Source of the DNA: Lyophyllum atratum
Taxonomy: Eukaryota > Basidiomycota > Agaricomycetes > Agaricales > Lyophyllaceae
Direction: 5' to 3'
Assembly: GCA_014905825.1 (NCBI GenBank)
Contig: JACGCN010000024.1
Location: 124,001 to 188,000 of the forward strand
DNA length: 64,000 bases
A model generated the notes under the pieces. That model was not told the origin of the DNA and searched no databases. It saw nothing but the letters and a program-made list of their open reading frames with translations. This document shows, in pieces, positions 3,795 to 60,849 of this stretch. Both the position numbers and the translations under genes were made by a program. The first letter of the stretch is position 1, and every line of letters begins with the position of its first letter.

Positions 3795-6700
3795 TCATCT
3801 ATCCAAAGGAAGGCAATGAATACACTCTCCAACCACAGCCATGGTTAAATTGCACGCTGAAGCATGGCAGATAACGTCATCGATGTTCAGTAAAATAGGA
3901 TGTGGTCTCGGCGCGCAATGGAAAAGTCGGCCACCGGCAAAAGAAAAGCGACGGAAAGGGTCGTGATTGGCTTCCGCGGCGGAGAGAGGTTCGAACTCGT
4001 CGACGACAAAGAAAGTCCGGGTCGTAGAGCCGGTGGTCGTAGTATGTGTATGCGAAAATACTTGACGGATCTGCCCACAAGACCATTCGGCATCGGAATT
4101 TGCGTATATCACATGGCAATCGTTGGTTGAGGTCGAAAAGACTTGGCCCAATCGTTTGACGTGAGGCCGAACGAACACCTGCCGAGTTATCGGCTGTCCA
4201 CCTGACTGTTCGCTATCAGACAACCACAAACGTAGCAGTGCATATTCGAGCTCTGGGAGCGGAGAAAGATCTCGATATGACCATGTCACTTCTTCCGGTC
4301 GTTTCTGGAAAGACTCGTTGAAAGTGAGCATGTCATGAAGATATGTGCCCCGTATGTCATGCTCGAAAGTCTGTTGATAGGCATCGATTATCTCGTGGAT
4401 AGAGCTTGGAAGGTTTTCAGATTGGATTAACGCGCGTAGTTTTTGACCCTTTGTGAAATTGTTGAACATCGTTTGCTCCAACTCGCCTATTAGTCACTTG
4501 TAAGACAAGAAAATCCTGAAGTGATTGTGGCACTTACCAAACTTCTGATTTGTTGGAATTTGTTGCAACAGGTAGTTATATCTTTCGAAAGGGAAACAAC
4601 GCCAACCATGTGTAGGTCCGAAGCGAGTGAGCAAGTCTCCAAAATGGAGGGACATGTGTTGGTAAGGTGTAATGTTCGTTCCAGGATAGAGAAGCAAGAG
4701 AGTTTTCAGATATCGCAGCATATGAAACTGATACTGCTGAATGCGCTGAGGTGTCATGCATCTCATAGACCCCAACTTGACGGCAGTGACAAGATGCATA
4801 AAGTTTTCCAGCATCATGGCATCTCTACTTCCCTTCTCCGCATTTCCCCAGAGTCGAATGACCGTAATGGGGAGGTTGATGGTGCAGAAAGTACGCCATT
4901 GATCAGCACTGAATTTTCCATACTTTTTTTCGCCAGGATGCGATGTCGCACGGGAAACCCAAGACGGTAGGCTCACTCGTTGCAGATCTTTTCTGACCTC
5001 TCCCAGTAAGCCTTTCCCAAGAACACGTGTTTTGTTCTTGGTGCGTTTGGTCTTGGAGCTTTTAGGCTGCGTAGAAACCTTTCCCTTCGTGTTGAGAACA
5101 CCTTGCTCTATCCGCTGTAAAAGCCAAAAAAAATGAGGATAAACGACGGACACATTGAGATAACAGCACCACATTACGATGAATGAGCTCCATCAACGGG
5201 GGCTTTGTAATCTTCTTCCCTCCCTCCGTCAATTTCCTTCTCCAATCGTAAGGAGTGCCGTCGTCGTTCTTGCATTTGGCATCACAGAGTAACTCTAGAA
5301 TCTCTTTCTTTTGCCTCTCGATGGTACTTTTGCTTGATGATTGCCAAACGAGGTCGATGAAGTCCTCCGTCATCATCGCGACCTCCCACTGCTTATTCGA
5401 TTGTTTTGGCTCCGAAGGGGTTATGGTACCTTTGGGACTCGGGGTTTTTTTCAATCTTCCCGAAGCATCTACCCATCCTTTCTCCACTTTCTATTAGACG
5501 AGACGGGAAGCAGGCGAGTAAGTATTCGTTCCTAGAAGACAATGAAAGTGCTCACGTAGTCAAGGAGAGCCTTCAACAGCTTCACCTTTCCCATCCCGAA
5601 CGGCAACTCACACTCTCGACATAGTTGTCTCAGAGTCGCCTTGCCCATTTTACCCATCTGAGCCTCTGTCCCTGTTTTCAGGACCTCGTGGGCAGCTTTC
5701 ATATCGTCTTCCGAAGGTTGATTGGGATCACGATCGAATGTAATGCCATCTCCATCATCGAACCGGACATCCATTCCCCAGATCTCCCGACAATGGCGCT
5801 GCAAGATGCGCAGGTAGAACATGTGCATAGAATCTATCACAGTGAATTTCGTGACGTCCCAGTACGGAAGGCGCAGGAGCTCAGACCAGCGTACTCCACT
5901 AGACTTGAAAAGGGTATCACGTTCCACCTCGGTCTTGGCATTGAGCCATGCTCTAGCATGCGCTTCATGTTCATCGCGTTGACGTGGGACCCATTCTGGA
6001 TAATTAAGATCCATGATCTGATCAAGCGTCTGGTTACATTCAGAACAGAAATGCGTGGATGAGTGGTGTGCAAAGCCAGACATGGTGCGGGCGGCTGGAA
6101 GGTCACAGACGAGAGGCACGAGCGCAACACGGACAAGCCGCCCATCCGGATGAAGGGACGTTTTTGTGAAATAGACACCGTGTTCCCAAAATATCATGAG
6201 GTCATCGACAAGGGGCTGAAGGATATAGTTGATTTGGTGCTGGGAAGGTTCTTTTGGTCCTGGAATGATTCCTACAAGAAACATGTTTTCGACTTTATAC
6301 CGAAGTGCAGGGGGAAGGTTCAGCACAACCATATATATGCCACCAACCGATAGCTTTTTCCCTGCGGTGCGGTTTCCATACGGGTTAAAGCCGTCCATAT
6401 TCAAGCTGAGGAGCAGCCTGCCCTCGTTTCCGTGTTTCTCCGTGAACGGCCGACCATCAGGCCCTAGAAGGTCCCGAAGAGAGGGCGAATCCCAAATATC
6501 CCACGTTTCCGTCTCCGAGGTCTCCTCCGGCAGGTCACTTGGATGGGTTTTGTCTAGGAAACTTTCAAGATCGGAGCGCCCGTATAACCACCCCACCCAA
6601 TGTTTTATATCCTGGTATAGAAACTGACTTGCTGGCAGGCGGTCTTTTAAGTCATCTGACCCGTCCGAGTCCGTCTTTGAGTTATCAGCCTTGTTCTTCT

Positions 6701-10679: not shown

Positions 10680-13600
10680 ATGCCCAAAGTTTGGTGTGCT
10701 GTTCCTCTAGAACCGGATACATCGTCTCCATAACTGACATACCGTCTTGGTCATCATTAGGGGTGTGCTCGTCCGTGGTAACACTCGGAAAGCTGTTACG
10801 CCACCCGACAACCTCACCATTGTAAATGTGGCCCTTGGACCAAAGCCGGAGAAGCCCTTCGACCGGACTTGCCTAATGATGGCATATCCTGATGATCAGG
10901 ACTCTGCTGGTGTTGTCACCCTTGCAATATGCACTCTAGACACGAGAGTGGTACGTGCTATTGGAAGCCCTTCCTTATCCGGCGGACATTGACTACCTGA
11001 CCAATCTAGTCTGAATGCTACAGCACTTGCATTGCTGTGGAAGGCGGGGTGGAATACGTCTTTGTTGCCGATGGGCCTAAGTAGGTCCTGTTTTTTCATC
11101 CTTGTCCTCAGTCATTTATATTCAAGGTTTTTTCTGCAAGCGACATTCACATCTTCTTCAATGGCTCTGGTATGTTATCCGTGTAAACACCAAGATCATG
11201 AATTGACGCCTTCTATAGGGACCACCTCCGACACGCCTCTCAACCATCCGACAGAAAGCGCTCCCATCATCAGCCCCGCATGCACTAGGCCCTTTTCTAC
11301 CATTGCTGAAGAGAAGTCCTCCAGCGCCTCCAGACCCCACAAGAGAGCGAAGGCAGAGTCAAGCAAGGGCGAATCCTCGTGGTGGGTCCTCACCTTCCCA
11401 GACATAAATATAGTCACTTCATATACCTGAAAATATTAGGAATGCGGAAAACAAGGGGAAAGCGAAGGAAAAGGACAAGACGCAGGAAAACCAAAAACGT
11501 ACGTCGCTTTGCCAACTCGCTTGTAATGGCGAGCCTGACGTGATTCCCTTGGTCCCAGCAAAAAAGGACCATGTTAGGCGATCATCCGCGTTTCCGTCGT
11601 TGGCGCTGACAAATGCGTCGGGACAGGTAGCTGCCACCCAGTCGGCTTCACCCTTCGCCATACCGAAGACGCCACCCACGCCGGCAAATGCGTCGGGACA
11701 AGCCACTGTCGCCCAGTCGGCGTCACCCTTCGCCATATCGAAGACGCCACCCCCTGCATGTGTGACTTTTGAAGATGACACAATCGGAGAGGGTGTTGAA
11801 GTCCGCAAAGGCAGCCAAGTCAAGTTTTGGCACGTCATAACTTCAAACGGCAAGGAGCTCGCCAGGCTGATAGATGGCAAACCGGTGAGCCTTATGTGTA
11901 CTCCTCTTCCGTCAATCATCTCACTCTTCAATAGCAAGGAAGCACGGTCGGACAAGACACATTTATCAAAGGTAAGCATACACGCCGTACCTTGAGTCCC
12001 ACACAGTCTCATAATCCTGCAGGGTTCGACCAAGGTATCATTGGGATGAAACCTGGCGGCGTACGGAGAATCGTGATCCCAGTCTCCATATACGGCAAAG
12101 GACGAATCCCTGGAGCAGTCAACGACGTATTCGTTGGTACGTGAGTAATTTCTGCGCAATCAATAGTGGCTGTAGCGATATTATAATGTGGTGTGCAAAT
12201 CTCACTTTTCCACATTGTTATGTACCAGCCAACCTCTAAGGCCTTGATGACATTAAAATGTCTCCTATCCCAGGGGGGGTAGGCCTCCCCGACATTATAA
12301 TGTGCAGTTTTTTTGTGCCCCCCCACATTATAATGCAAGTACATCTACCCCACCCACCCCAAAGAACAGTCGAAAATTCCCCCCCCCCACATTATAATGC
12401 TGTTCTACATTATAATGTGGGTATCTCTACCCCCACTCCCTCCCAAAAACCTACATTATAATGCCTCAGCTATCACATGATCCCGTACATTATAATGCGG
12501 GTATCCCTACCCCCACATCCCTCCTCCAAATCCTACATTATAATGCCTCTTATAATGCCTCAGTTATCACATGATCCTACATTATAATGTGGGTTCCCCT
12601 ACCACCACCCCTCCTCCATGCCCTACATTATAATGCCTTCAAGCCTTGACCATCACATGATCCCCTACATTATAACGTGGGTATCCCTACCCGCACACCC
12701 CTCCCCCTCCATATCCTACATTATAATGCCTCAGCTATCACATGATCCCCTGCATTATAATGTGGGTTCCCCTACCCCTACCCCTCCTCCATATCCTACA
12801 TTACAATGCCTCAGCTATCACATGATCCCGTACATTATAATGTGGGTTCCCCTACCCCTACCCCTCCTCCATATCCTACATTACAATGCCTCAGCTATCA
12901 CATGATCCCGTACATTATAATGCGGGTATCCCTACCCCCACATCCCTCCTCCAAATCCTACATTATAATGCCTCAGCTATCACATGATCCCGTACATTAT
13001 AATGCGGGTATCCCTACCCCCACATCCCTCCTCCAAATCCTACATTATAATGCCTCAGCTATCACATGATCCCGTACATTATAATGCGGGTATCCCTACC
13101 CCCACATCCCTCCTCCAAATCCTACATTATAATGCCTCAACTATCACATGATCCCCTACATTATAATGTCAGTATCCCTACCCTCATCCCTCCCAAAAAT
13201 TCTGCGTTATAATGCCTTGACTATCACATGATCCCCTGCATTATAATGTGGGTTTGCCTGCTCCTACCCCCCTTCAAATCCTACATATAATGCCTCGATT
13301 ATCACATGATCCCCTACATTATAATGTGGGTCTCCCTCCCTCCTACCCCCCCTCTGGATCCTACATTATAATGCCTCGACTATCACATGATCCCCTACAT
13401 TATAATGTGGGTCTCCCTGCCTCCTACCCCCCCTCTGGATACCACATTATAATGCCTGTAATGCTACCAACTTAAGTTTCAATGGTTTCAGGATGTCCGC
13501 AATTCACTCTGGATGTAAGCTCGAGGAGTTGATTTACTTGAAATTTATTAGCTACCATTAGACCGCATATTCTAATGTTCGCAGCTGTCCATCACGGTAT

Positions 13601-16600
13601 CTACCTAAAAGTACAGCTTACGCTGACATCATGAGTTCTTGATCACATATGTGTGCTTGTTTCTATTGACATCCGGCCCATCTCAATCGGACCATTCCTC
13701 TTCTTCGCTCTCCTCAATGTCTAGCTCAACCTCTATGACATCAAAGTGTTCTTGCAGCTTGTCTCGTAGGGCCTCCTTTGCCCGTTCGCGAACCGGAGCC
13801 CACCGTTGGCGCCACAGCTCAGCCCTTGATCTTTCAACTTCTACCTGCTCGGCTGCGTACGCGCGTAGGCCTTCATTGAGACTAGCTGACCCTGATTCCC
13901 GATGGCTACCCTCCTTCTCCCACCAGGACGCTCGCCATTCGCAGTATTCAAGGACACGCCTCATTTCCTCCTCAAGCAACATTACCTCCTCCCTCCACCT
14001 CTCCGCCCTCGCACGTGCCTTTACCCATTCCAAGCGAATACCCTCATGCAGAGAGTCATCTGCGTCGTCCTCCATTTCTGCGGCTGTCACAGTGTACCAA
14101 ATCCATGACATGTTTCGGTGTCCGTCCCCAACCCGAAGCCGCAGGGTCGAGAGTGTGCGTAACCCTACCTCGCCATCAGAATTCTCATCAGCATCTCCAA
14201 CAATAGCGCGCGCCCGTTTGCCCGTCACCGCCTCCTCCTCCAAAACGGTCCACTCATTGACAGCCCGAATGTCCGCAGCATTCAATGTCCTATACGTCTC
14301 CTCCCATTCTCCACTTCCTCTCAGCTTGAAAAGGGCGTCGCGGGCAGCGCAATAGCGGTCACGAGCAGATCGAATCTTTCTTTCGATTTGATCTTGAAGC
14401 GCGCGCATCCTCGTGTAAGCACCCTGACTCTTGGCGTTGTCGTCCTTGAATTTTCTTGCGAATGTTCTAGTGCGGAGCTGTCGACGCAAATCACCCAAGG
14501 CTTCGGAAGCGTGAGCTTCACGTAGACGATCTTCGATTTTGGGAAGATCAGACATGCAGATGCGCGATCGGCTAGCAGCATCCAGGGATGATGGCAGCTG
14601 TATATCAATCTGCTCGGGAACTACGCCGGACTCCTCAGCTCGCACAAGTCCAGGCATGTAAGTCGTTTGGACTTCGCGAAATTTCTGAATTTTGCGGAGG
14701 AGCGAGGTGCGTTTCTGTTGTAAAGTAGCCTCTTGAGCTGGTGTCCGATTTTTTTTGGCTGCTTCTGGACGCAGGGACAGCCTGTGTAATGAATAAATCA
14801 ATGATAGAAAGAAATCCATATGTCAGGATGCACGCACTGATTATCCGCAATTGCCAGGCCGGAAATGATGAACGTGGCTGGCGTGACATCCAGGGAAGCG
14901 CCGCCACTCTCAACGTTTTGATGGTCTTCTTCGGCAAGTTGTCGTCGGATCTCGTTGACAGATACGGCTAAGTTCAATGTGGTGGTCAGCGGAAAACTAT
15001 CCACCGTGAGTTCCACGTACTATCTTCCTTGATCAGATACGGGTCAGGCTGCATATGGTCCGCCTCCCAATCCTTGACCATTTTCTCCCAGCTCAATAAT
15101 TCCTCTCGATGCTCCTTACGAATAGAATCTGTAAAAACGTCGAACGCCTGTCGATGAATGATGGCTTCAGGGATAGCCGCAACAAGATTCTTAAGGAGTG
15201 TTTGCCCTCAAAGTGAGAGAATGCATTCAGGTACTGATACAAATCTGACGTGAGGCACACTTACCGAAATCGACTGTTCGCCGGTAGTTCCAGTAGGACA
15301 TGAAATCATCCAGTGTATCGTGGCGAGCACCTGGACCCATCTGGCTAGTACTTGGTGCCGCACCGTTGAGGAAAGCCCAGTTACGCTCAACACCCTCACC
15401 ATCCGTTCGGCCGACGCCCTGCGTATAGTTCAGCGAGTAAGGACCGTGGCATCCAGGTTTATGCGGCGGCAAATGGAATTTAGGGACTTTCCACCAGATC
15501 CTCGGCATGTTAATGAATTGGAGGTCGTCAGGGAGGTGTGACAACCGGGTCCAGAAGTTTTTGGAATATTGGCAGGCTATGTCGTAGGAGAGTACCACCC
15601 ACATCAAAAGAACACCAGCCATGCTCGATAGAAAAATCATGTCCATGTTCGCATACCTGGAGGGGACTGAGTATATTCAAGGGGACGGTACGATATCAAT
15701 AAACTCACCTCTCTCCTTTCTGCAGGTCCCCAGTTCCCGTCGGTCTAAAAAATTGATGCCGGGAACAACTAACCGAGCCGACACCAGTCGCACGAAGCCC
15801 CTTAGATTTCTTGCTATTCGCGAGCCAAAGCGCCGCAAACCCAACACAGTGAGAGATCTACAAGGACGTCTGTCATGATCTGCATTTGGAGGGAAGCAAC
15901 TTGGCGTACCTCATCCTGATCAGCATACTGCGAGACATGACGCAAGTATCGATCACTCGCCAAGAAGTACGCCAGCCCTGGCTGGAGGGATGGATCTTTC
16001 TCGTCAGATGAACGAAGGCGGTTCTTGAGCCGAAAGTTTGCATCCTCCGAAAGGAGTAGGGTATAGAGCCAGCTTAGGGACAGAGTGAGTATGTAAAATC
16101 TATTATTCGTTGCATGACGTACGCTATAAAGGGTGGAGCCTTCTCCCAACCAACGGGGAGGTTGATCCCAGGCTGGGGACAGGCCCGACAATTAATGGCT
16201 AACCCTCCCGAAGGAGTACCCAAAATCCCTCCAGGGTCATGACCACGCCCAGCACGCTTAGATGCTTTCAAATGCCGCCATTCTCGAACAATCAGCATGA
16301 ACGCAGAGAGCCGATCAGGGATGTTCGTGAGGCCAGTGGCATCTGTCAGTTGCAAGATCGATTTGTAGAAATCATAACCGGCGATTTTGCCCTGAAGGTT
16401 GACGGTATGGAACAGCCGGAGGACTGCAAACGTCGCAGATGTTTGAGGTTCAAGTGGTGTTGCAGGGAACCACGCGACATCCAAAAGTTGCTGAAACGGC
16501 TCATATTTTGGGTCGCAACCGCAGAAAAAAAGGTTTACGAAATGGACGCCGTTATCATGAATGACCTGAAAGTCCTTCCGTGCGGCACGAGAAAATGGAC

Positions 16601-19600
16601 AGATCTTCCGAGGTGCGTGTCCGAGTTGAAATTGGAGGCCCAGACTTGCGAGAGAGATCTTCTTGAAATGACGATCAGCCCAGATCTACACACGAAACAT
16701 CAACACACGAATTATGACATTCAATCAAAACTCACCTCAATTCTATGCAGCGGCTGGTCACCATGATCACGGAGCAAGCAATGTCTGCATACCACACGCC
16801 GGCCGTGACAATCAATACAGCGGTATATTGGCTCAATGTCCCCGCATGATGCACATTTTTCGGCAAATCGACCACGTCCCTCTAACTGCAGCTTAGCATC
16901 AAGATACCTGTCGCGATAATCAATCCATGTCAGAAGCGGAGTATCCTTCAAGTTGAAGAGATTGAATCAGTTTGAGTATCAACTGGGTCAGATAGCTTTA
17001 CTAGTAGAGAACATACCGAGTTCTTGTACCGTTTCGCTTGCACCTTCACGGAAATCCCAGCTGTTAAATCAATGTCGCCAGCTTCAGCCGAATCCCCTTG
17101 TGGGTCAAAGCTATCCCAGTCGTTGACAAGCATTTCCCCTTCTACTGCATCGGATACCGATGGCCCCGCGATCGTCTCGGTCCAAGACGTTACAGTCCGA
17201 ACTTGTCCACTCGAACTTGCTGTGGTGGCCGTGGTAACCTCTACCGGGTTGTGGTTATAGACGCCCCGATTCCCTTGGTACTTCTTTGCGCGTTTCGGTG
17301 GCATAATGAAGGATAACGATGAGCAAACACTTGCAACGCAATGGAGTCCCGGGCTCGAGTCACCTTTGACGTTGCAAGCAAGTGCACAAGTTCAAAACCA
17401 AGAGTCACTGTTTTTGCATTTGCGATCAACACCTGATGCTGACTTTGATCATGATTGCAGACTCACCAAATACACACTATGCGTCTTCATCGATTCGTAC
17501 TCCAACCTCAATCCCATCCATCGCTCATCATAACAGATTGTCACTGAACATGTCTTTCCTTTGCAGAGACAGTCAAAGATCATCTATAGGTTATTGGACC
17601 ATTGCAAGATGTATCGAACATGGTATATTTGGTATCGCGAACTCACTACGCCGTGCATCAAGGCCCGACTCGGAGGGCCAGTTCCTGTCTGACAATCGCC
17701 ACCCACACTTCAAATTCACCACTACAACCACCAGCAACAGCAGGACCATGCCGGCACCTGTAACCGACGATGATGATCGTAAAGTATACCGTAAATGGGT
17801 TCTCCAGGACTATCGCGCAAAGTGAGTTCCTGTCACACCGTCTGGGGTATATATTTACTAATGATATGAAGACATCGGGAGCGATTGAACCAGAAAGCAA
17901 AAGAAAGGGCTGCCAAATCACGAGCCTCTCTGAAGGATCTCCCGGTTCAGGTCCAAGAGGCGAAGCGGCTCGCAAAACTTGAATACGCTCGTCGATACCG
18001 GGAGAAGTAAGTCATTGTTATTTTCCTGAAGCTGGAGCATCGAACTGACTGACTTTCATCAGAAACAGGTCTTATTTGAAAGCGCAAGCAAGGGATAGAA
18101 GAGCCGCGTGAGTATTATGTTGTCGTCTACATATGTTGGGCTAACTGTAATGACCAGGAAATATATTGACGAACATGGATATGAGGCTTACTGTACCTCT
18201 TACCGAGGTCAGAAACCATTGGAGGATTCGGTGGATGCTTCTCTGTAGTATTAGACCCTGTATACCCGACTGTTGGGCATCTTACTGCGTATACAAGTTG
18301 AACCACCCCTGCTTTTTTGAATAAGCCTTTCCGCCCACGCCACATAATGTGCAATGACATAAAAATGATGATTGACAACGAAAATATATCGGAACACTGC
18401 GGATAAGTCTATGGCAAGATTACGGTAAGATTCACCCTGCAATTCGGTTCATTGTACTCTAAGGCTCAGAGCTAAGGCGGTAGCGAGATCAGCCTCCTCC
18501 CTGGCAGCTAAGTCATCATCCCGGTGAGCTCGGTTCTGAGCATCGGCCAGGGCCTGGGCGGCAGCGATTGCAGCTGCGATGTTGCTAGGTTTCGAGAAAG
18601 GCCCGTCGAGTAAAATTTTGACCTTGACGTGCTTCTCGTTATAGAGTCGCGTGTAGATCTTGTGAGCCGTCTCCCAGGAGTCGAAACCCTCCTGAGCAGC
18701 GCAAGGAACGCCGTTAGTGTGGCTTCCAACTGTGCACCTGCAACAAATGTGAGTAGTTGAAAGAGGAGGCCGAACATGAAGCACACCAGTCGTAAAAAAT
18801 CCCCACAGCCTGGCCAACAGTTACGACGTAGTAATTCTTTACGATAACATTCAGCCCGGGCCTGGTGAGCTCAGACGGCGCGACAGGTCGCCCTACAATG
18901 TACCTCACAATTTTCCCGCGGTGATTCCGGGCGCTCTCGATGGTGAGGTCTTCTAGCGTGAGGGAGGGGCGAGGAGGGACGGCAGGCACGATCACAGTGA
19001 CAGGCTCACGACGCCAAAGAACAGGTTCTCCGCGACGTAGACCGGGTTCTCGACGACGCTGTGCAGGCTCACGATGCAGAGCACCGGCAGCTAAAGCTAT
19101 TTAGGAACAGTTGAGGCTTCATCATATGCAGACAGTAGCGACTTACCTTCTGTATAGGTGGGGGGAGCCTCGTTTGGAGGGTCTTCGTCGTCGTCAGATA
19201 TAACGACGACCCGGCGAGGTGTAGCGTTGTTGGAAAAAGGGCGAGCAGTGGGCATGGTGTTCGCAACCGGTAGAATGCTACGCCGGTGGTTCGTAATTAA
19301 GCGGACTTGACAAACAACGTAAGTTTAAATACTTTTGAAATGAAAACAAGGAGTAAATACCATTGAAAGTCGAAAGCAGGGTGTTGACACGTGTCCTAAA
19401 CAACACTCCGAAAATGACCAAAAAACAGGGTACAGGCAGAGGTTCGACCGGTCGGCACAGCTGGGTCAAGGGTAGCAAACTCGAGTTCTTCGAGGCTCGC
19501 GAGGAAGAGTTCTTCGACGCCCGAGACGCTGGTCCGCATGCGACCGGCAATTTCTACCATAAGATGGCACGTTTGTTCATGCTTCGTTGGGGGTGGGATC

Positions 19601-22600
19601 TACCATTTGACGAGGATGGCCCGGTCCTTGTCGAAGCCTCTGAGAGCAGCGCAGCAGTGCCGTTGGATTGGTCTGACGTCGACGAGGGGGAGCAGGAGGA
19701 ACGAAGCCAACGGTACAAGCTTTTACAAAAGGTAAGTCAGCCTTTACTTCAGCCATGAATAATGACGATGTACTCATGTCATCCTTTTAGAATGTTGGAC
19801 AATGGTTCCGTTATCGATTCACGCGGATCAAGAAGACAAAAACGCACGACTCCGTGCAGCAGATCCTTGAAGCCTTTCAAGATATGTCGGCTGTTCGACC
19901 TCGGAAGCAAACCGCGCTTCACCTATATTCAAACCGCAACTATAAAACGAGGTTTAAGAAACCATTCGACGAGCTATGGAACACGATCAAGGACAACATA
20001 CCTAAACCAACAAGAGTTACGGCCAGTAACGAGTTTGTACGTCAGGCATGGCTCAACGAAACTGAGGAGTATCGCCTGGCAATGGAGAAGGAGACGGAAA
20101 CTCTCTTCCAAAAGGAATTGAACGAGTACAAAGGCGACGGTGTATGGACACCTCGGACCCCCGAGGAGTATGATCAGTGAGTCTTAAGCTATATAGTACA
20201 ACGTCATGTGAGCTCATTGGCGGACAGGGCGATGGCGGATTCGGCCACGACCCTAATCCCATTTGCGGATGCAATCGCCCAGCGGCTCGGTGTCTATGTC
20301 ACGATAATGCTTTGCGGACCGATGGCCGAGGGAAAAGTTGAGCTTCGAAGGTACGTGGGGATGTCCCTGTCTCTAGAATGCTGCTAAACCAACCGTATCA
20401 GTATCCACTCGACGACTACAGGAGGTCGCACCTCCAAGATTTGGCCGGAGCTCGATCCTGATGGATATTCCCTAGCCCAAACATCAATAACTGCATATGG
20501 GAACCGATTCTTTGGTCAGTTGTCGCAAGCTATCCCAGGGTAAAGATTCTCACATGTTCAATCCAGCAAAAGAAGATATTGAAGCACGAAAGCTGGGGAC
20601 TCCAGCACCCGATGGTGAAGCTGGGCTTCGTGCTGAACCTGACAAGGAGGCAGCAAAGCCTCTGTTCGTGATGCAAGACCTGGATATCGAGATTGAGAAG
20701 GCCGCTCTGCCGACCTTGTCCTCTAAAACCCTGCCCACGTCTTCCCCTTCCGAGGCTCCAGGCCCAGAGATTCCGATGGCGACAATCCGATTCAGCAATG
20801 ACCCGGCTGCCCCTGCATCTCCAAAGCTCGGCCCTGGCGTCAATAGCGAGGGGAAACAGGCTCTGATGGGGGAAGCGATGCCTAAGACATCTCTAGGTAG
20901 AGCACATGGTCCCACTGCCATCCACATGGAACATCCGAGTGGGGCTGAAACGAATGGAGGTAGAACAATTGATGGTGGTGCCGCTACGATGGGAAAAGGT
21001 GGTGACGGTCCAGGTCTTGGGGTGGATGGGAAGGGTGCTAATGGCGGGGATGGGCCGGAAGTTACGAAGACGGCTGTCCGAGGGGACGGCGGAAGTGACA
21101 CGGAGAGGGATAAGCCGGAAATTATCAAGGCCCTCGTCGAGAAGGATGGTGGAAGTGACACGGAGATGGATGGACCGGAAGTTATGAAGACGCCCGTCGA
21201 AGAGGACGGCGGGAGTGAGGCAGAACGACGCCCAGAACACGCTAGGGTGAGTGATGACACGGGAGAAGAGGGTGAGAACCCAGGGGCGGCTGGTACGAGT
21301 GACGAGGGAAGCGTTATCAAGGCCCTCGTCGAGAAGGATGGTGGAAGTGACATGGAGATAGATGGACCGGAAGTTATGAAGACGCCCGTCGAAGAGGACA
21401 GCGGGAGTGAGGCAGAACGACGCCCAGAACACGCTAGGGTGAGCGATGACATGGGAGAAGAGGGTGAGAACCCAGGGGCGGCTGGTACGAGTGACGAGGG
21501 AAGCGGCGCCGTGGACAAGGTCTCCCAGGGCAGCGCCGACAACATTGACCTGGAAACATTAGTACCTGCTGAAAATCGAGGGACCCTGGGTGCACTCACC
21601 TTTCTGAAAGGGAAGGAATGGGGACCCGTGTGGACTCAGTGCCTACACGCGTGGATCACGTTCGAGGCTATCCGAGGATTTCCAGTGCGTAGTAGTGCTT
21701 GTTTATCCTTAGCAAACGGGCTGATGATATTCTAGCGTGAAGACGGGAGGTTGGCGACTCAAGGGAGGCCCGCTGTGATTGGGCAGTGGATGAAGGGAGG
21801 CCGTCGATGGGTTGACCAGAACGTAGGCAGTAAATTTGCTGCGGAATGGGCGAAATGGTGGCATGTCTTGAAGGGCGGTGACGACGCGAACGTGGATTGG
21901 GAGTCTTTAAACAAGGGTGGCTCGACAGGTTTGGTCCTTGTGGTGCTGGGCCTGGCCTGGTGGGGTGAGAAGATCGAGGAGATAGGAAGGACTTGTGAAG
22001 ATCCAGGGACTTGGCTGGCGGCTGTGCGCGACGTGATCATGATGCTTGATGGTCTTCTGTCAAATCAGCCGCAGGTGGACAGTCCAGGGGGAAGTATAGA
22101 ACCCACCTCGAAATCTTCAAAGTAAGTGGCATCAGCGTCGGATTCCTGCGCCGAGATGATTGACTTCCAGTGTTCATAGACGCAAGCTTCATAATTCAAA
22201 GAAACAGGATGAGTCCCCGGCTCCAAAGAAAAAGAGGTATGAAGACACACCTTCCGCGCGTATCTCGCTCATGGCGCGTTATTCCCCCAGAAAATGAATC
22301 TATCAACTTCCTGAATCATGCCCATTCCCATCCTAACACTCCTGTAGACCTTAATCTTCTCCATTTAATACATTGTGACTCGTATGTGCGCTGATGGTGT
22401 GGCCAATGGATGACGATGGTCAATGCTCGTGTTACAGATAATCGGTGGACTTGACGCACTGACTGATGTTAACCGTTGTTTGGTTCGGAGGCTCTGAAAA
22501 TTATTATCTTATCTGATGTGTTCAGATTGACGGATGTGGAATGAGGAACAATGATGTCACGCCAGTTCAAAACGCTTCGAAGTCTGGTAAACTTGAAGGC

Positions 22601-23562
22601 ATATGACATCATGCACAATGATGTCATTTTTTTGAGGGGCAGATTTGCGCCCGGTGTGCCCAAAATTGCCCCTCATGTTTACAGGCATTTACAGTTCTGA
22701 CTATTACTACCAATGAACGTTATTGTCTTATTAGTAAACATAGTAAACAGTCTAGTAAACATAGTTAACATTATAATGTAGGGGATCATGCGACAATCCA
22801 GGCATTATAATGTAGATAGGATTTTGGGGAGGGGTGAGGGTAGGGAGACCACATTATAATGTAGCGGATCATGTGATGCTTAAGGCATTATAATGTAGGT
22901 TTTTGGGAGGGGGTGGGGGTAGGGGAACCCACATTATAATGTAGGATCATGTGATAACTGAGGCATTATAATGCAGGTTTTTGGGAGAGGGTGGGGGTAG
23001 GGATACCCACATTATAATGTAGGATCATGTGATAACTGAGGCATTATAATGTAGGTTTTTGGGAGGGGGTGGGGGTAGGGGAACCCACATTTTAATGTAG
23101 GATCATGTGATAACTGAGGCATTATAATGTAGGTTTTTGGGAGGGGGTGGGGGTAGGGATACCCACATTATAATGTAGGATCATGTGATAACTGAGGCAT
23201 TACAATGTAGGTTTTTGGGAGAGGGTGGGGGTAGGGATACCCACATTATAATGTAGAACAGCATTATAATGTGGGGGGGGCGGAATTTTCTACTGTTTTT
23301 TGGGGTGGGTGGGGTAGACGTACTTGCATTATAATGCGGGGGGCACAAAAAACTGCACATTATAATGTCGGGGAGGCCTACCCCCCCCTGGGATAGGAGA
23401 CATTCTAATGTCATCAAGGCCTTAGAGGTTGGCTGGTACATAACAATGTGGAAAAGTGAGATTTGCACACCACATTATAATATCGCTACATGGACACCTC
23501 GCGCAATCGGATATAATCTCACGCCTTTGGTAGCTTGTAAATTGCTAGAAATTCTTAATTAA
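10680..23562 (+). CDS. Nuclear FKBP peptidyl-prolyl isomerase with nucleoplasmin-like domain; last intron hosts a KDZ transposon
   Basis: Ten exons (10680-10693, 10761-10950, 11010-11080, 11141-11169, 11219-11381, 11440-11498, 11559-11884, 11935-11971, 12023-12136, 23534-23562) give exactly 343 aa. Residues 1-100 form a nucleoplasmin-like fold (VTPPDNLTIVNVALG, acidic strand, VEYVFVADGP, DIHIFFNG). A basic linker (HKRAKAE, KGKAKEKDK) looks like a nuclear localisation signal. Residues about 240-343 are the FKBP catalytic domain (GEGVEVRKGSQVKFWHV, FDQGIIGMKPGGVRRIVIP, ending CKLLEIL). Proteins with this layout (yeast Fpr3/Fpr4 type) are nucleolar prolyl isomerases acting on histones and ribosome assembly. 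The ninth exon stops before the final beta strand; that strand is encoded 11.4 kb downstream in phase. The intervening intron contains the whole transposon, so expression needs removal of an 11,397-nt intron. Confidence 0.85.
12154..12161 (+). repeat. Left 8-bp target-site duplication, GCGCAATC
   Basis: Identical to 23501-23508. It lies immediately outside the transposon within the last FKBP intron. Confidence 0.85.
12171..13456 (+). repeat. Left terminal array of the KDZ element (palindrome-rich 80-bp satellite)
   Basis: The outer 300 bp (12171-12470) is a unique TIR. Inward lie about 12 tandem units of 78-82 bp, each marked by CACATGATCC (near 12474, 12654, 12739, 12819, 12899, 12981, 13063, 13145, 13225, 13303, 13384). 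Each unit has about two copies of the perfect 10-bp palindrome CATTATAATG, a C-rich tract (CCCTACCCCCAC) and the spacer CTCAGCTATCACATGATCC. Several neighbouring units are nearly identical, implying recent expansion. Confidence 0.9.
13683..17304 (-). CDS. KDZ transposase with CxC2-type cysteine cluster
   Basis: Nine exons (17304-17017, 16945-16736, 16685-16123, 16072-15910, 15857-15709, 15656-15265, 15206-15021, 14967-14838, 14781-13683) sum to 1059 aa, a usual length for the family, with no stop. The start MPPKRAKK and the order of blocks match fungal KDZ proteins. The zinc-binding cysteine cluster uses C127, C130, C139, C142, C149, C152 and H157. Then come GLQFQLGH, a REWRHLK..KRAGRGHDP block, and LLSEDANFRL. 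The catalytic core has SYDIACQ (D483), VPKFHLPPHKPGC and GVGRTDGEGVERNW (D543, E545, E548), followed by GPGARHDTLDD. The C-terminal half is a long Glu/Arg-rich helical region ending in an acidic tail. It should move the surrounding 12162-23500 element. Its start lies 443 bp from the divergent small gene, which may share a promoter. Confidence 0.92.
17748..18248 (+). CDS. Small basic helical protein, KDZ cargo
   Basis: Four exons (17748-17821, 17872-18006, 18063-18107, 18158-18248) give 114 aa with consistent phases. The protein is dominated by Lys/Arg/Ala/Glu helical sequence (RERLNQKAKERAAKSR, EAKRLAKLEYARRYREKNR, LKAQARDRRAAKYIDEHG), probably a coiled coil or nucleic-acid-binding helix. I do not recognise a named domain. 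It sits inside the transposon, head to head with the transposase, so it may act in transposition or regulation, but nothing in the sequence proves that. The ATG at 17748 is the first in frame and has a purine at -3. Confidence 0.65.
18449..19255 (-). CDS. Protein with RNase H1 N-terminal / viroplasmin-like domain, KDZ cargo
   Basis: Three exons (19255-19147, 19096-18787, 18737-18449) give 235 aa in frame. Residues 1-60 are basic and acidic low complexity with repeated RREP motifs (REPAQRRREPGLRRGEP). Around residues 118-170 is the signature of the RNase H1 N-terminal domain, also called the caulimovirus viroplasmin domain: YYVVTVGQAVGIFYDW, then GSHTNGVPCAAQEGFDSWE and AHKIYTRLYNEKHVKV. In cellular RNase H1 this domain binds RNA-DNA hybrids or dsRNA. 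No RNase H catalytic domain follows; the C terminus is Ala-rich and helical. A role in handling R-loops or transposition intermediates is inference. It shares a 158-bp divergent intergenic region with the 853-aa gene. Confidence 0.75.
19414..22297 (+). CDS. Large agaricomycete-specific protein (conserved N domain, repeat linker, WWGE C domain), KDZ cargo
   Basis: Seven exons (19414-19731, 19791-20176, 20228-20350, 20402-20514, 20567-21684, 21736-22121, 22180-22297) give 853 aa. The N-terminal 310 residues contain the blocks GSKLEFFEAREEEFFDAR, FYHKMARLFMLRWGWDLPFD, NVGQWFRYRF, FADAIAQRLGVYVTIMLCGP and SIHSTTTGGR. The middle is a Gly/Glu/Asp-rich linker with a 192-bp in-frame duplication. The C-terminal domain has WTQCLHAWITFEAIRGFP, GRPAVIGQWMKGGRRW and VLVVLGLAWWGEKI, then a basic KKKR tail. 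I recall many paralogues of this architecture in mushroom genomes without a known function. Its location inside an intact KDZ element suggests it travels with such elements. A 52-nt intron with donor GTCAGT (20515-20566) is required to join the N and middle parts. An upstream in-frame ATG at 19363 is an alternative start. Confidence 0.75.
21122..21505 (+). repeat. 192-bp in-frame tandem duplication in the KDZ cargo gene
   Basis: Two copies start with TTATCAAGGCCCTCGTCGAG at 21122 and 21314 and run through the string GAGGGAAGCG; they differ at only a few bases. The period is 64 codons. Confidence 0.85.
22298..22764. other. 3' flank of the KDZ cargo gene inside the element
   Basis: No gene. 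It is AT-rich and ends in short repeats of TAGTAAACATAGT just before the right palindromic array. Confidence 0.5.
22765..23490 (-). repeat. Right terminal array of the KDZ element
   Basis: Inverted counterpart of the left array: about six units of 78 bp marked by GATCATGTGAT (near 22868, 22946, 23024, 23101, 23179), each with CATTATAATG palindromes and G-rich tracts, followed by a 250-bp TIR nearly identical in reverse complement to 12171-12470, ending in ATATCGCTACA. Confidence 0.9.
23501..23508 (+). repeat. Right 8-bp target-site duplication, GCGCAATC
   Basis: Exact copy of 12154-12161; the FKBP intron resumes here and ends at 23533. Confidence 0.85.
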
Positions 23563-23759
23563 TTAGTCAGGTCTTGTACAGATTCTGCGCCGCATATTCA
23601 TTACCACTTGTTATCTCCTTGCGATTTAAGCATGTTCTTTGTCCTTGGTGGATTTCTTTGGCTCATGTACCAAGGTGCTTTGTTGCGTGCCGACAAAGGG
23701 TCATGCCACCCATACCCTCATCCTTTAAATAACCGCCGGTGATGCTCACCGTCGTCAAC

Positions 23760-24851
23760 ATGGAACCCTCGTTCTCTCCTCGGGCACTGCGCGCCAATGC
23801 ACGTTCCGCCAAGCGTGAGCAAAGGCAATCCTCCCCGATTTCGGTCTCTCCTCGGCGCCCAGCATTGCTCACGCCACCTCCCACGATCCGTACATACGCA
23901 GTTTCACATAGAAGTCACCAGCGAGACCCTGTCCTCTCATCGCCCACGACTAGGGCAAATTTGTCTCCCGATCCTGCTGGGCCGTCTTCTGCCACTCACT
24001 CGTGTCCTGTTATCATCCACACCCCCACGCCACATGATGTCAGGGAATCAGAAATATTGAGAGTGCTGGAAGGTATACTAGAAGAGTGCGATGACCTAAA
24101 GGTTGGCCAGGCTGTGCCCTACAAGTTCCAAACATCACTAACTGATTTTCCAGAGCTCTTCCAAGGTTAAGAACGCTGTCAATAAGGCGAAAGACGATCT
24201 TATAGCAAGAGAGGAGAATTCGCTCCGCAAGGTATCCATCCATACTTTCTGACTACAGCTCGTAACAATACTGACTAGTTGGCAGGTCGCGGACGGACTC
24301 CAAGCTGCGACTCAATGCCCGATTTGTGTATTACACTCCAGACGACCCTTTATGTATGTTCTAGATTCAAACTTTGAATCCCACATTTTCTTATCACTGG
24401 AGACAGGCTTCCAAGATGCGGGCATACTTTTTGTGGGCCTTGCCTCCGAATTCTTTTCTCAAAAACCTTGGAGAAGAAGCTCAAAGCTTTAAGGGCCTTA
24501 TCCCTCACAAATACCCGGTTGTTCGACACTCAAGTCGTACCGACCTCTATCGAACACTTCGAGGTTACTTTGGAAGGCCTCAAGCAGTTTAATCGCGATC
24601 ATTGGAGGTACTTCTGCTATAATTGCCCCACGTGTGCCTTGCCCGTCAGTACATCTCCCGTCGATGTTGCAGAATTCAAGAGATTCATTTCCGACACTTG
24701 GGAAGCATTGGCTGATTGGCCCGGTCTTCTTCCAGGATCTGGAGACATGGTAGATGAATCCAGCGTTAAATATGGTCGCGAATACTTTTTCGGCCTTTTC
24801 GTAGATACGTTGGACTATAGGAAGAAAATGTTGGCTAGATCACAGTTATAG
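23760..24851 (+). CDS. RING-finger protein, probable E3 ubiquitin ligase
   Basis: Four exons (23760-24101, 24154-24231, 24286-24353, 24407-24851) give 310 aa. The first 110 residues are Ser/Pro/Arg-rich and disordered, followed by a short helical segment. A C3HC4-type RING is split across introns: C151-P-I-C154, C167-G-H169-T-F-C172-G-P-C175, then a long insertion and C236-P-T-C239. RING domains recruit E2 enzymes; the substrate is unknown. The long spacing between the central and last cysteine pairs resembles a group of agaricomycete RING proteins I recall with this layout. A TTTAAATAA box at 23724-23732 lies about 30 bp before the start. It begins 197 bp after the FKBP stop. Confidence 0.75.
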
Positions 24852-25492
24852 ATAACACGGACTCAGATGCTCTCATACATACAGTGCTGTCGGTGATAGA
24901 ATGAGATCATTAGGGGAGGGTTGGCACCATGAAACGTTCCGGGCCGATCCCGACCATGCGAAGTTTTGGACCGCATCTGCATCACCTGATCAGCCACCTT
25001 CCTCCACTTAACATATAACTCCTCCTTCCTCCTCTTCGTAGATATCTCCGATCCTGCGATATGCGCGCATACCACTACAATAACATTCCAGCCTGAGGCA
25101 ACCAGCAGGTTCCCCACGACCACATCCCCTCCCCGTCCGTCGCATCAGAGGTCCTCCTCAGCATCAAATTATGGACGATCCCAGTCGCGGGCGGCGGGGC
25201 CGCGTCCGACAAGGACGCGGCGGTGGCGGGGCACAAGAACTGCGGCACGATTGATGTCTCCAAGGAGGGGCTCGGGGACGTGAGTGCCCTTAAAAGCGAG
25301 TGTGGTCTGGGCGCAGTCCAGCTGACGTTTACACGAGGATCAGAACCCACTTCGACGCGTACCAGGACATCATCATCGTGCCAAAGCGACTGCGTCAAAG
25401 CGACATCCAAGTCGTTCTCCTCTCCATTAAAATGTCGGATTGCACCTCAGGTCCTGCCACTGCTTTCCCGTCTCCTCTGGCACGTCGCACAT
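24852..25492. other. Intergenic stretch with an unassigned coding-like fragment
   Basis: On the plus strand 25100-25440 reads as GC-rich coding-like sequence (for example SIKLWTIPVAGGGAASDKDA, and later HFDAYQDIIIVPKRL in another frame after a possible intron). I cannot place it in a family. It may be a gene fragment. Confidence 0.3.
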
Positions 25493-27859
25493 ATGGCTTC
25501 TGTAACCCCATCTTCCTCAGCTCCCGCCACTAAGCCCGGCGCCAAACCCTCGCGATTCCCCTTCACTATTGAACAAGAAGCTTACATGGACAGCTTTATT
25601 CCGGAGTTCGAGCAACAAGTCCGCACCCACGATCCGAAATTTGATGGTCGCCGCAAGGCTGTTGCAGATTCGAAGACCAACACGGCCGATACTATTCTGC
25701 ACAACAAGCTCTTCGAAGACCTTCCAGGTAGTGAGGAACGGAGCGAATGGCGGAAGGTATGTCATAAAGTCCATGATATTGACTTCTTTTTCTCACCGCA
25801 TATTATAGGCTATCTTGCGCCGTTTTACGAATCACTTCGTCAACAAGATGAAGAGGAACCATGTGTCTGCCACAGCACCCACTGCTACGCCTCGCAAAGG
25901 TGACGAGATCAACAAGCTTATCGACACCCATGTTCTTCTGAGCGCAGAATTTTTTGCCCTCAATTACTTCGCGCTAGAGATCGACGACGAGATCATTCGG
26001 TGCTATAGAGAGCTCTCTCGTCAGGAGAACATACCAGGTGGTGGCGCCCGTGCTCGGGTAACTAAACAGATGTGGGAGGAGGCGGATAAGGAGGTATGGA
26101 TTCAGAAGGCAGAGGCAGCGAAGAAGGATATCTACAAGTACGTTTCAACCTTGCACTCATTGATGAAGTTACCCTAATCCCTCGTACAGGAACCAGAGGG
26201 AGTATCCACTTCTTGTAAATGAAGTCATCCCAATGTCCTCGGGCATAAAGTCGTCGGCTCTATGCTATCCATACATGCATGCGCTTTCCGTGATCAGGAT
26301 GGCAAGATCAAGACCGAACTGTGAGTACCTTAGGGCGCGTACATGGCATACGTGACAACGGTCATAGAACGAAACACGGGTTCGATGTTCAAGACGATAC
26401 GGAAATAGATTACACGCTCCCTGGAGAAGACGGAATTTCGAAGAGCTTAGAGAGTCGTGCGGATATGGTGCTTCCTCGTATGTGTCTTCTTCTCCGCAAT
26501 CGCTCGTTACTGACCATACATAGGTATTCCCAAGTCCACTCCAGCGGTGTTTATCCCAGCAAACGAGGCCGGAATTCTGATTTTCCCTGCCATTGATGTC
26601 ATGGCGACGGCGCCGCCCGAGTTGCAGCAGGTCCCGGATGACTATCTTACAGCTTTGTGGGGTAAGTACACATTACCGTTCCTTTTCCTTACACGCACTC
26701 ACAGCTATTCTCTACAGCATTCTCCTGGCCCGCAGACCAACGGATGCCTGCTACATATACCTTGGGCCGACATCGCTGCCTCTCCATCCATCTACCACGA
26801 CAAATCCTCATTCTGTCTTCCCACCACATTGACGAACCCCGAGTTGTACAGCAATAGCCCGGCCACTTGTATTCTCTCGCAGAGTTCCTCTTCCGGATCT
26901 CGACATCACCCCTTCCGTTTCGCTTTCGATCGAAGGACGACATCATCCAGAGGACCTTCGAGTTGCAAAAGGGGATCGAAGCCGAACGCACAGCCGGCGA
27001 TGATGCAGACGGTGCCATGGAAACCGATGATGTCGAGGAACTCCAGCTTAACCAGAACACGGAAGGGGATCGGCACGTCACTCCACCTTCAGCAGAGTTC
27101 GATAGCAACAGCGCTACGACCAAGGATAGAATCGAAGGATCTCCTGGTGCGCGATCACGCACTGGTGATGCTGAAGCGGAGAATCCTATGCCACTAGGCA
27201 GTGCAAAGAACGGTACCAATCTCGACGCTATCTCTTACGCCCGACCTGACTTCATGACTGCAGCCCCCGTCCCCGACTCACCCTCATCTCAATCCCCATC
27301 AGCATCACTCTCGAACAATGCTGGCCCAGATGTCGAAACCAATCAACCGAGTTGTGGTGCAGGAATCCCGGCACCATCAACTGGGGGTAACAAGGGCAAG
27401 TCCCGAGGCAGGGGAGGAAAGGGTAAACCAAGGAGTAAGTACACTTTCTTCCCAGGTAAGAATGCGCCGGCGACTCACCATGCGTACACTATGCAGAGAC
27501 CGCCAATAATGCAACAAAGTCCAACGTAGGCGTCGCTCAGGTCAACAGTACAGCTCCTATCTCTGCCACCTCGACGACTCAAGTTCGAGGCGCCGTCACG
27601 ACAAACATTCCTGCAAGCGATCGGCGGGCGGCCGCCGAGGATGCTGGAAGCGTCGCATCTGCCATCAGCGCACCAAGACGCAGCGCTTGTTCTGCCAAGC
27701 GTAAGGAGCCAGACAGTTGGAAGAATGATGAAGAGCTTAGGAGAGCGCAACCGGCTCCAAAACGGGTCAAGTGAGTTAACTGAACTTATAAACTGTTCCG
27801 TGCACTCTCAAATCGATGATTATAGACCCTCTTGGACGATGGAAGTTGTTCTCGATTAA
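25493..27859 (+). pseudogene. Agaricomycete-specific multicopy family gene, likely frameshifted
   Basis: The first two exons are clean (25493-25756 and 25809-26137) and encode FPFTIEQEAYMDSFIPEFEQ, EWRKAILRRFTNHFVNKMKR and an acidic/helical continuation. Further on, family-like segments appear in conflicting frames: HKVVGSMLSIHACAFRDQDG (around 26246-26310) needs a one-base shift relative to the frame entering from 26190, and IPWADIAASPSIYHDK (around 26759-26810) needs another. The 3' part (26860-27770) is a Ser/Pro/Gly-rich disordered region with KGKSRGRGGKGK and a KRK-type basic patch, ending after a last small exon at 27859. Function is unknown. Two apparent frameshifts suggest decay, although a splice variant or sequencing error could explain one. 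Confidence 0.5.
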
Positions 27860-28710
27860 CCGCTTCCTGTAACGTTTTCAGATTAATCTCTATTTCAACG
27901 TCCTTGTTTAATCCCAACGTGAAATCTCCTGTTGAATCTCTGTATCCAACCTGCCACTACACTCGCAATAAACGTCTTTATTTAATCCCTGCTCAAACTG
28001 ACCTATTTAGTCACTTCTCGTACATTCATTGCTAAGTTTCAAATACTTTTACTGTGATTAATCGTGTTTTTTGAGCCTCAAGGCTGACCCGCAATATGCA
28101 CTGCGCGCGGTAGGATTAATCGCAGGTAACGGTTAATCACATTTCTTCATCGAAGGCGTGCGATCAATCGAAAACCATGCGGATTTTTACCAAGTTGGAA
28201 TTGGTGGGGTCAGACCTGGGGGAGGACGGGTCCGGGCTTGTGATCGACCGAAAGTTGGGTGGGATACTGCGCAGGAGAAAGTAAATGACCTGGAAATCTA
28301 TCAGAATGAAGGCCATACACCTCGAAAATATGGGCCACGAGATCCTTGCCTTCAAACTGCTTCTTCATGATGCCATCCTGGTACACACTGACAGTAACCA
28401 AGATATGTATCTAGGGCCCTCTTGTCCGACTGGTCCAACCCATCTACGACGAGTGCAACGGTGATCTTTCGCCCGTTTGGGAGATCTTCCTCCACGTCTT
28501 TGGGCTAGAATAATTCTTCGTTGGCCTTGCAGATGTCGCTTGTGTGGAGTGTGCGCAGACAGCGTCTTCTGGGTTCCGGCCTCCTGTATTGATTCGTTAT
28601 TGGCAAAGTTACGTAAGTCATGCCATCAAAGCTCCGTATTTGGGCATGATGTCAAAACATCACCCTTTGAAGCTATCGCATCAGTCTGACAACATTTTGC
28701 CAAAACAAGC
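27860..28710. other. Intergenic, AT-rich, with a small minus-strand fragment
   Basis: 27870-28150 is AT-rich with no gene. On the minus strand 28401-28210 reads [20 protein letters not shown], possibly a 5' exon or a relic of a larger gene; no partner exon was identified. Confidence 0.35.
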
Positions 28711-31154
28711 ATGCCTGGCATGCGGTTTTGCTATGTCTCTGTGAACGATCAAGGCAAGCAAGAAAAGACTTTTAATGCAGAAGAGTAAGTGCTGTATCTA
28801 TCGCCTCCTGACATGCGATGAAGCGTTCCTAGACAAAAGGAGCATCATGACAGGCAAGAAATGGAACGGCGAGCCAGAGCGAAAGCCAAGCTTCAGGCAG
28901 CTAAACGTGCCCGAAGCGCAGGCAAGCGAGAAAAGGCATCCCATGAAGAACTGTAAGTGTGGTATTTATTGCCTCTTCAACTGCGATGACGCGTCCGTAG
29001 ACAAAAGACGCATCATGAGTGGCAAGAGAAGGAATGGCAGGCCCAGAAAGCTGAAGCAGTACTGCCAAACGCGACTTCCCCATTCCAAACGTTGCATACC
29101 ACCGCGCCCAATGTCCCTGCAGGCCTCCCTGCCTTTGAGCACGACAGCCACGATATGTCGTTTCAACACACCAGCGATCCTCCCGCGATGGACCTAGATA
29201 TGCCAGTTACTGAAGATCACAATGAGCCACAGATGAGCCATAGACGGATACTCACCGAGCCACCTACTCGGAGACTCCTGTATGAGCCCCTCGAGCGATC
29301 CACCGCCGTCTCACCGCCTCTTCCCTCAGTTGGAACTGAACTCACGTCGATAGATGCTCCTGATGAGGTTGGGATGGACAAGATAGATTATGTGACGCCC
29401 GTCCTTGGCGTCGAACTCTCAGATGCCTCTCCTCAGGTAGAATGGCCCAGTGGGGCAATCACTGTGGTACCATTCATCCCGCACCCAGAGAATCCCAACA
29501 CCAATATCCTTACCCGTGTATGATTCTTATGTTTTGGTCATATTCCTCTCATTACTGAACGCGACTTTGGCAGGATGCGCAGTTCGTTACTAATATCACA
29601 CTTGCTATGGACGCTAGAAAGAGCTCATTCGTTCGTTACCTTGAATCTACCGGGAGCAATGAGGAAAAACTTATAGAAGTTTGCCGCAACGAATTAGCGC
29701 ACGGCAACGTCGTTGTTGTCACTGACAGCGGCAACTTTGCGGGGCAGCTTGGGGGAGAATTCGATGAATCTGTTTTCCGAAATTTGGGCTATAGAGGAAA
29801 GGGGCGGTCCTTCGACATTCACGGTACGTGGTTCCTGCGTTATCTTCAGTTTCCAGATGGCCCATGCTGTTTTTTTTCCAAGATGCGCTGAGACGCATAG
29901 ATCACCCAGAAGCGCCTCAATTAAAGGGCCAGCAGCTCGATGTACTTCTTAAAAGCGTAACAGATCATAGCAAAGTGCAATGTATACTGGATATGCCGTC
30001 CCGAACCTCACTAATCCCACCTCTTATTGAGTGCGTACATGCTCACTGCCCCTGTTTTCAACCATTGACGACACATATCAGTTTATTGAATGACGGATCT
30101 ACCTCATTTCAAGAAATTCAAGACATTTATCCGGAATCGATCGTCCAACAAAACATCCATGACAACCGGTCCTGGCTTCTAGCTCACACTGCCGGGTTTC
30201 TCACATATCCACATCGTGATGCTGGCGGACTCTGCACGTTCATAAAAGGCTTTAAGATGTGGGTTGTATATCGCGCAGGTGGCTATTTGGCTGCGAGAAA
30301 TCGAAAGGAACTTGACCATCAACAAAAGAAGTTCGAGGATAAAGAGGGTGGTCCCGGCGAGCCCAGTGGTTTTGGAATTGAAGAAGACGAACAGTGTGAA
30401 GTTGCCGTGATCCATGCCCAGCCCAATTCAACGGTGTGCGTCCTCCCTGCCTTTTTCACCTTCACCGCAGTTCATCACATCTCGCAGGATCATGCCACCT
30501 GGGGTCTTTCACGCGGTATACACCCCAATACGTAATGTCGCTAAAGGAGGTCATCTCTTCTTATACGACGCCCTGCATTTGACGGAAGCGGCCAGAGCAT
30601 CTGACCATAAACGTGCCAAGTTTGTCACCAACACGGAACACGTTAGTGTTGGTAGAACACTGGCGCGGATGGCAATAGCATTGCTTCGACTCTCCTCTGA
30701 CATGAGTGAGTTATCAGACTTTTTTGGCGATGCAGCGGTTTATCTACCTTTTTCAGTCTTCTATCGAAAGCCGATTATTGCGTTGTGCTTGATGGTGAAG
30801 TACCCAAAACGATATGCACCAGATAAACGCACGTCCACCCACACCAAGCAGCCTGAGGCTTGCCAAGAACTGAAGGACAGCGTTGTGGTGGTAGACGCTT
30901 TGATTAAGGGCCTCGAGATAGCTTCATATCTCCGCGCAGGTGGTCCGGACTATCTTTTCGAAGGTGATGTATACTGGATGAACCCCGGTCCTGTCATCGA
31001 CATCGCCCCAGCTCTCGCTGGATTCGATCCGCAAGATCCTTTTCATGAGCCGCCTATCAGTTTACCCGACCCTTCCTCTCCGCCTGAGGACGATGTCATG
31101 GAAAACGGGGAGAAGCGCAAGCCTGCCAAGCGCCGACGCAAAGCAACGCCCTAA
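28711..31154 (+). CDS. JmjC-domain protein, putative 2-oxoglutarate/Fe(II) oxygenase
   Basis: Seven exons (28711-28784, 28833-28952, 29001-29517, 29574-29823, 29883-30030, 30082-30435, 30488-31154) give 709 aa in frame. Residues 20-90 are a basic, Glu/Lys/Arg/Ala-rich helical segment (likely DNA-binding or coiled coil), followed by a disordered stretch. The JmjC-like core spans about 245-560. The iron-binding triad is visible as H414-R-D416 in LTYPHRDAGG and H496 in MPPGVFHAVYTP, and the pattern continues with GGHLFLYDALHLTE. The C terminus ends in a nuclear-type basic cluster (KRKPAKRRRK). JmjC enzymes mostly demethylate histones or hydroxylate proteins; this protein belongs to a fungal group without a defined substrate as far as I know. 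Complete triad and clean splicing argue for a functional gene. Confidence 0.8.
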
Positions 31155-60597: not shown

Positions 60598-60849
60598 GCA
60601 CCCCTGCATGCTATACACTATGATGAGAATTGACATGAATTGACTGGCAAAAGAGAAAAAGGTGGGCTCACCGTGACCGACAGTCTTCACGCCGAAAAAA
60701 CTTCAAGCGCAGCGTGCTCGAAATTGAGGAGGGGGAGATTGATGAGCTGACGTACGATAACGCTTGAGTCTGAGATTAGAATGGGTCATTATAACAAAAC
60801 ATATATGCTAAGGATTCTCACGGATAAGTTGCAAGGCGTATTCCCCACG

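Follow-up and report, generated by a model that had tools for sequence, protein, structure and literature searches.

The window, that is, the whole 64,000-nucleotide stretch analyzed here (C69:124001-188000), is one contig piece of the 64.8-Mb assembly of the agaric Lyophyllum atratum. On its forward strand lies an NPL-FKBP gene whose exons 1 to 9 (10680 to 12136) are open when spliced: 10680-10693, 10761-10950, 11010-11080, 11141-11169, 11219-11381, 11440-11498, 11559-11884, 11935-11971, and 12023-12136. Exon 1 follows the public model P0001, which, mapped on the DNA, gives a first intron of 67 nt (10694-10760, forward strand). A start of exon 4 at 11127 was rejected because it breaks the frame, which the start at 11141 restores. 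The encoded protein matches the NPL domain (PF17800, 38.3 bits) and the FKBP_C domain (PF00254, 34.2 bits), each above its Pfam cut-off, and the two together assign it to the NPL-FKBP type. The FKBP_C score is 34.2 bits with or without the last exon, because the domain match stops short of the last strand; likewise, the best solved-structure match of the protein, FPR4 chain 4bf8_A (E 2.7e-11), ends ahead of that strand. Elsewhere in the window, a 24-bp unit makes up a tandem array of ~2 kb (60829 to 62836), and a 336-bp unit is repeated twice in tandem at 44864 to 45521 (91% matches).

The last base of exon 9 is 12136 (phase 1), and joining the exon to 23534 yields ACKLLEILN followed by a stop. 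Exon 10 (23534 to 23562, forward strand, stop included) comprises the remainder of an alanine codon, CKLLEILN, and the stop, and it has counterparts in paralogues on contigs C80 and C108. In its present state, the last intron measures 11,397 nt (12137 to 23533, forward strand), with the donor GTACGT and the acceptor GGTAG. It contains a KDZ transposon of 11,339 bp (12162 to 23500), recognized by its domains and delimited by ends common to the copies on contigs C71 and C66. Two copies of the target-site repeat GCGCAATC (12154 to 12161 and 23501 to 23508, both on the forward strand) directly abut the element ends. By itself, the 8-mer is not rare (chance alone predicts 2.53 occurrences in the window, and 3 are present); the pair is meaningful because both copies abut ends fixed independently by other genomic copies, and the chance of an exact abutting 8-mer is, arithmetically, 4^-8. 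When the element and one repeat are subtracted, an intron of 50 nt is left (17 nt, the 8-nt repeat, and 25 nt), running from GT to AG with a CTCAC motif 12 nt ahead of the acceptor. The initial annotation had placed a complete ~11.3-kb KDZ element with an exact 8-bp flanking repeat in the last FKBP intron, with an original intron of 50 nt ("25 + 25") and a last exon downstream in the right phase, and our analysis confirms this architecture. Its statement that 50 nt is the usual local intron size also holds: the 21 other introns at hand measure 47 to 71 nt (8 from this FKBP gene and 5 from the C80 paralogue, as given by the public models, and 8 from our own transposase model, the scoring of which favored 45 to 75 nt).

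The element carries an inverted-repeat arm with a tandem array at each side. The left one (12171 to 13457) holds 24 CATTATAATG palindromes and the right one (22768 to 23490) holds 14; the 38 palindromes found in the window are all located in the two arms (12293-13454 and 22769-23367), with none elsewhere in the window. These arrays are likely transposase-binding sites. The outer inverted repeats (12171-12279 and 23382-23490) are 99% complementary over 109 nt, so that terminal inverted repeats are present, but they start 9 to 10 nt inside the ends. The left-end sequence is AATAGTGGC in the window and C71 copies and AATAGATGC in the C66 copy, and the right end, read inward, is GAGGTGTCCA. In all three full copies compared, the two outermost ends differ in sequence (AATAG... 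versus GAGGTGTCC...). The direct repeats are 8 bp long in the window and 9 bp in both C71 and C66. All of them end in C, and they become 7, 8, and 8 bp if this terminal C is counted as part of the element; the original FKBP intron is 50 nt under either assignment.

On the reverse strand, the element encodes a transposase with an open frame (13683 to 17304; 9 exons and 1,060 aa in our own model). Within the first 694 aa of the spliced model, the KDZ domain PF18758 is complete (1-217 of 217, E 5.2e-62) and is preceded by an equally complete CxC2 domain, PF18803 (1-107 of 107, E 4.5e-36); parts of the KDZ domain were also matched exon by exon. What appears to be a frame break near 15858-15909 reads as a 52-nt intron. 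Two further element genes were observed. In the spliced draft of the first (18449-19260, reverse strand), PF01693, the N-terminal domain of ribonuclease H1, is matched at 33.9 bits against a cut-off of 21. The second (19400-22250, forward strand) has internal repeats of 192 bp, and its first part (185 aa) matched no Pfam family at E 0.01. No TET/JBP domain was found among the element proteins scanned, which covered a subset of the frames.

KDZ-matching stretches number at least 109 in the assembly, exon pieces being counted separately. The full sister copies lie at C71:388717-399966 (11,250 bp) and C66:279091-300844 (21,754 bp), and the latter's length includes 9,778 bp from a nested LTR-like insert, itself carrying a frame of 2,316 aa. 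The window element and the C71 copy differ by 39 mismatches in 11,084 aligned columns (99.65% identity over aligned bases) and by 9 gaps, 8 of which are in the arms; their transposases are both open, with 3 amino-acid differences. This near-identity points to a recent movement of the KDZ family. Pairs of ends on contig C76 were also considered as elements and were rejected for want of a matching target repeat. By our own reading of the sequence, the C71 copy has an MFS-like gene beside it, and a Copia-like frame surrounds the C66 copy; a preference of the element family for introns was not seen in these two other full copies.

The identity of the last exon could be assessed by comparison with the paralogues. 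No uninterrupted allele of the FKBP gene was found in the assembly, the part of the gene ahead of the element matching one place only. A search for orthologues with the whole protein returned its own record and four distant proteins (three of them named Colletotrichum), and a search with the FKBP region returned nothing beyond its own record; the comparison therefore rests on the paralogues. These were at first weak matches (E 0.0027 for C80 and 0.0129 for C108) and were then checked by reading the DNA. The C80 paralogue is uninterrupted: its FKBP gene is followed at a distance of ~200 bp by a gene homologous to the one that comes next in the window, and its public protein P0006, mapped on the DNA, has introns of 52, 61, 50, 47, and 50 nt. 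Aligned without gaps, its last intron (C80:371262-371311) and the joined window intron are identical at 31 of 50 positions; with the splice consensus left out, 22 of 41 positions agree, a value reached by none of 20,000 shuffles. The match is uneven: 18/25 in the first half, within which a local BLAST alignment stops, against 13/25 in the second. The last exons match at 12 of 24 positions, a value reached by 313 of 20,000 shuffles, and encode CCKVVKVI-stop in C80 and ACKLLEILN-stop in the window. In the C108 paralogue, according to our own reading, the last intron falls at the equal place and in the equal phase (ATLIF-G/AG-VKLMEIK-stop). The sequence evidence thus indicates that exon 10 at 23534-23562 is the true last exon, in line with the proposal of CKLLEIL as the final exon in the initial annotation. 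A block similarity also links window positions 23501-31120 to positions 2824-6625 of the C80 locus L029, and the portion at 29572-31120 is 75.5% alike on C80, where it is inverted; judged from these alignments, the similarity is an old duplication with rearrangement.

We consider it probable that this structurally complete KDZ transposon, lodged in the last intron of the NPL-FKBP gene, inactivates its host. The element would have transposed recently into the 50-nt intron. Since the host's 21 other introns are 47 to 71 nt long and splice sites would be paired across such short introns, the native acceptor, now 11.4 kb away, would be out of reach. Splicing in fungi is reported to rely for the most part on intron definition, a mode that restricts how long introns can be (PMC2397502). 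Transcripts may instead be spliced or ended in the left terminal repeat, through nearer AG sites, intron retention, or early polyadenylation. Retention of the last intron leads to a stop after VFVGT. An acceptor at 12166 defines a 30-nt intron and a VAVAIL tail, and one at 12175 defines a 39-nt intron and an AIL tail. A hypothetical 92-nt intron (12137 to 12228, forward strand), in which CTCAC precedes CCAG by 24 nt within the left repeat, would give the tail ANL. Twenty donor-acceptor combinations of up to ~230 nt were listed in this region; such motifs are common by chance, and the nearer acceptors are a possibility from which no single site is forecast. In every one of these cases the protein would end without CKLLEILN, the strand expected to complete the FKBP fold, and the allele should therefore be null or weak; the C80 and C108 paralogues, uninterrupted at this place, may cover the loss. 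The interrupted gene is, accordingly, likely to be a loss-of-function allele, and the balance leans against its survival. Several observations speak against inactivation or weaken the case for it. The native splice signals (donor, CTCAC motif, and acceptor) are all intact, which makes long-intron splicing compatible with the sequence, and the need for the last strand has no support from any tool result, the Pfam match ending before it. The nine upstream exons are open, but this tells little because the insertion is so recent.

Loss of function through an intronic KDZ element has a parallel in the FRR1 gene, which encodes FKBP12. This gene is the common target of rapamycin and FK506, and in drug-resistant mutants of Cryptococcus neoformans its introns as well as its exons have been hit by KDZ2 and KDZ3, the two elements counted jointly (PMC12810828). 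Because these insertions came from resistance selection, an intronic KDZ insertion can, by analogy, probably inactivate an FKBP gene; the screen, however, selects losses, and insertions that were spliced out would be missed.

The contrary reading, that the gene still works because the entire 11,397-nt intron is removed, perhaps with the help of arm pairing in the pre-mRNA, seems unlikely to us. It draws on the intact splice sites and phase of the native last intron and on the arms, whose outermost 109 nt are 99% complementary; in a folding restricted to the two arms, keeping them together gains ~754 kcal/mol relative to folding them apart. From the donor to the perfect part of the stem there would be 34 nt, and from its far end to the acceptor another 43 nt, which adds up to 77 nt, close to the normal intron size. 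In its most specific form, the transposon would act as its own splicing scaffold: the arms would zip together, the intron would shrink to an effective 77 nt, and an intron-definition spliceosome would remove a KDZ element that is complete and possibly still mobile from the host gene. We regard this version as decidedly improbable. In the same fold prediction, some of the donor and acceptor bases are themselves paired; the right arm is transcribed ~11 kb later than the left one; and the element's own genes lie between the arms. Moreover, inverted repeats (139 to 241 bp) are likewise carried by the Cryptococcus KDZ elements described in PMC12810828. Fungal intron definition and short introns (PMC2397502), the nearer acceptors available in the left repeat, and the FRR1 insertions all point against removal of an 11.4-kb intron, and the suggestion in the initial annotation that the host gene is kept alive in this way finds no support in our analysis. 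The locus opens a directly testable question: can inverted repeats, by drawing the two ends of a very long intron together, allow its removal by a fungal spliceosome?

A different ending is given by P0001, a public model of 340 aa that has exactly such a structure: a last intron of only 30 nt (12137 to 12166, forward strand) uses the element's first 5 nt, AATAG, as the acceptor (AATAG/TGG), the last exon lies inside the terminal repeat of the transposon, and the protein ends in VAVAIL instead of the lost strand. We give little credence to this as the real end of the protein. The predicted P0001 structure does show a strand at residues 332 to 338, but with a mean pLDDT of 49.9 it is too poor for the tail to be judged. 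At 30 nt, the intron is below all 21 others (47 to 71 nt), and it has no CTNAY motif, although 2 of the 8 other introns of the gene also have none. In addition, both paralogues use an ordinary last exon, and a gene finder unable to cross 11.4 kb would yield the same model. We read the P0001 ending as what a gene finder put in place of an exon lying 11.4 kb off. The initial annotation had named, as counting against its reading, a lack of spliced 12136|23534 reads together with an alternative final exon; of these two, the public model supplies a putative case of the second, inside the terminal repeat. The locus illustrates an annotation trap, in which a public model takes a transposon end for the last exon of a host protein. 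Finally, a misassembly that placed a repeated element in the FKBP gene deserves almost no weight, even though a near-identical second copy, the usual cause of mis-joins, exists, since a target-site repeat is present at both element ends, the sequences on either side join in phase into a single gene, and the C80 paralogue has the two corresponding genes in equal order, ~200 bp apart.

Returning to a recent and probably inactivating insertion as the preferred reading, the locus offers an unusually clean natural case, a recently moved complete 11.3-kb transposon in a 50-nt intron. A useful contrast is found in the same genome, where two paralogues are uninterrupted at that place, one of them with a matching 50-nt intron. 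In the literature searched, no title or abstract opening described this insertion. The host protein resembles the Fpr4 type in having an NPL domain and a C-terminal FKBP domain, but it is divergent, the four distant proteins being the relatives found besides its own record.

Among known fungal KDZ elements, Zisupton is similar in its KDZ transposase and terminal inverted repeats, and its target repeats are 8 bp, to be set against the 8 or 9 bp (7 or 8 bp without the terminal C) of the Lyophyllum copies, as summarized for Zisupton in PMC12730594. Kyakuja shares the KDZ transposase but, as characterized in the same source, has 7-bp repeats, CA..TG ends, and no inverted repeats; the Lyophyllum element differs from that description in its ends and arms. 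In Pleurotus ostreatus, a CxC2 region precedes intact KDZ copies, as it does here, while the insert reported to break MSH4 is a non-KDZ one (PMC7641404). The closest parallel in setting comes from KDZ1 to KDZ3 of C. neoformans, which, as presented in PMC12810828, are ~9 to 11 kb long (KDZ2 ~9.2 kb and KDZ3 ~10 kb), carry long inverted repeats, make target repeats of 8 bp (KDZ1) or 4 to 8 bp (KDZ2 and KDZ3), and likewise sit inside a basidiomycete FKBP gene, FRR1. They differ in having CxC1 where the Lyophyllum element has CxC2, in their host, the rapamycin/FK506 target rather than an NPL-FKBP gene, and in being new mutations selected in a laboratory assay, whereas the Lyophyllum insertion is a resident allele. 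Seen beside these systems, the insertion into the FKBP intron is a clear-cut case of a type of event already known.
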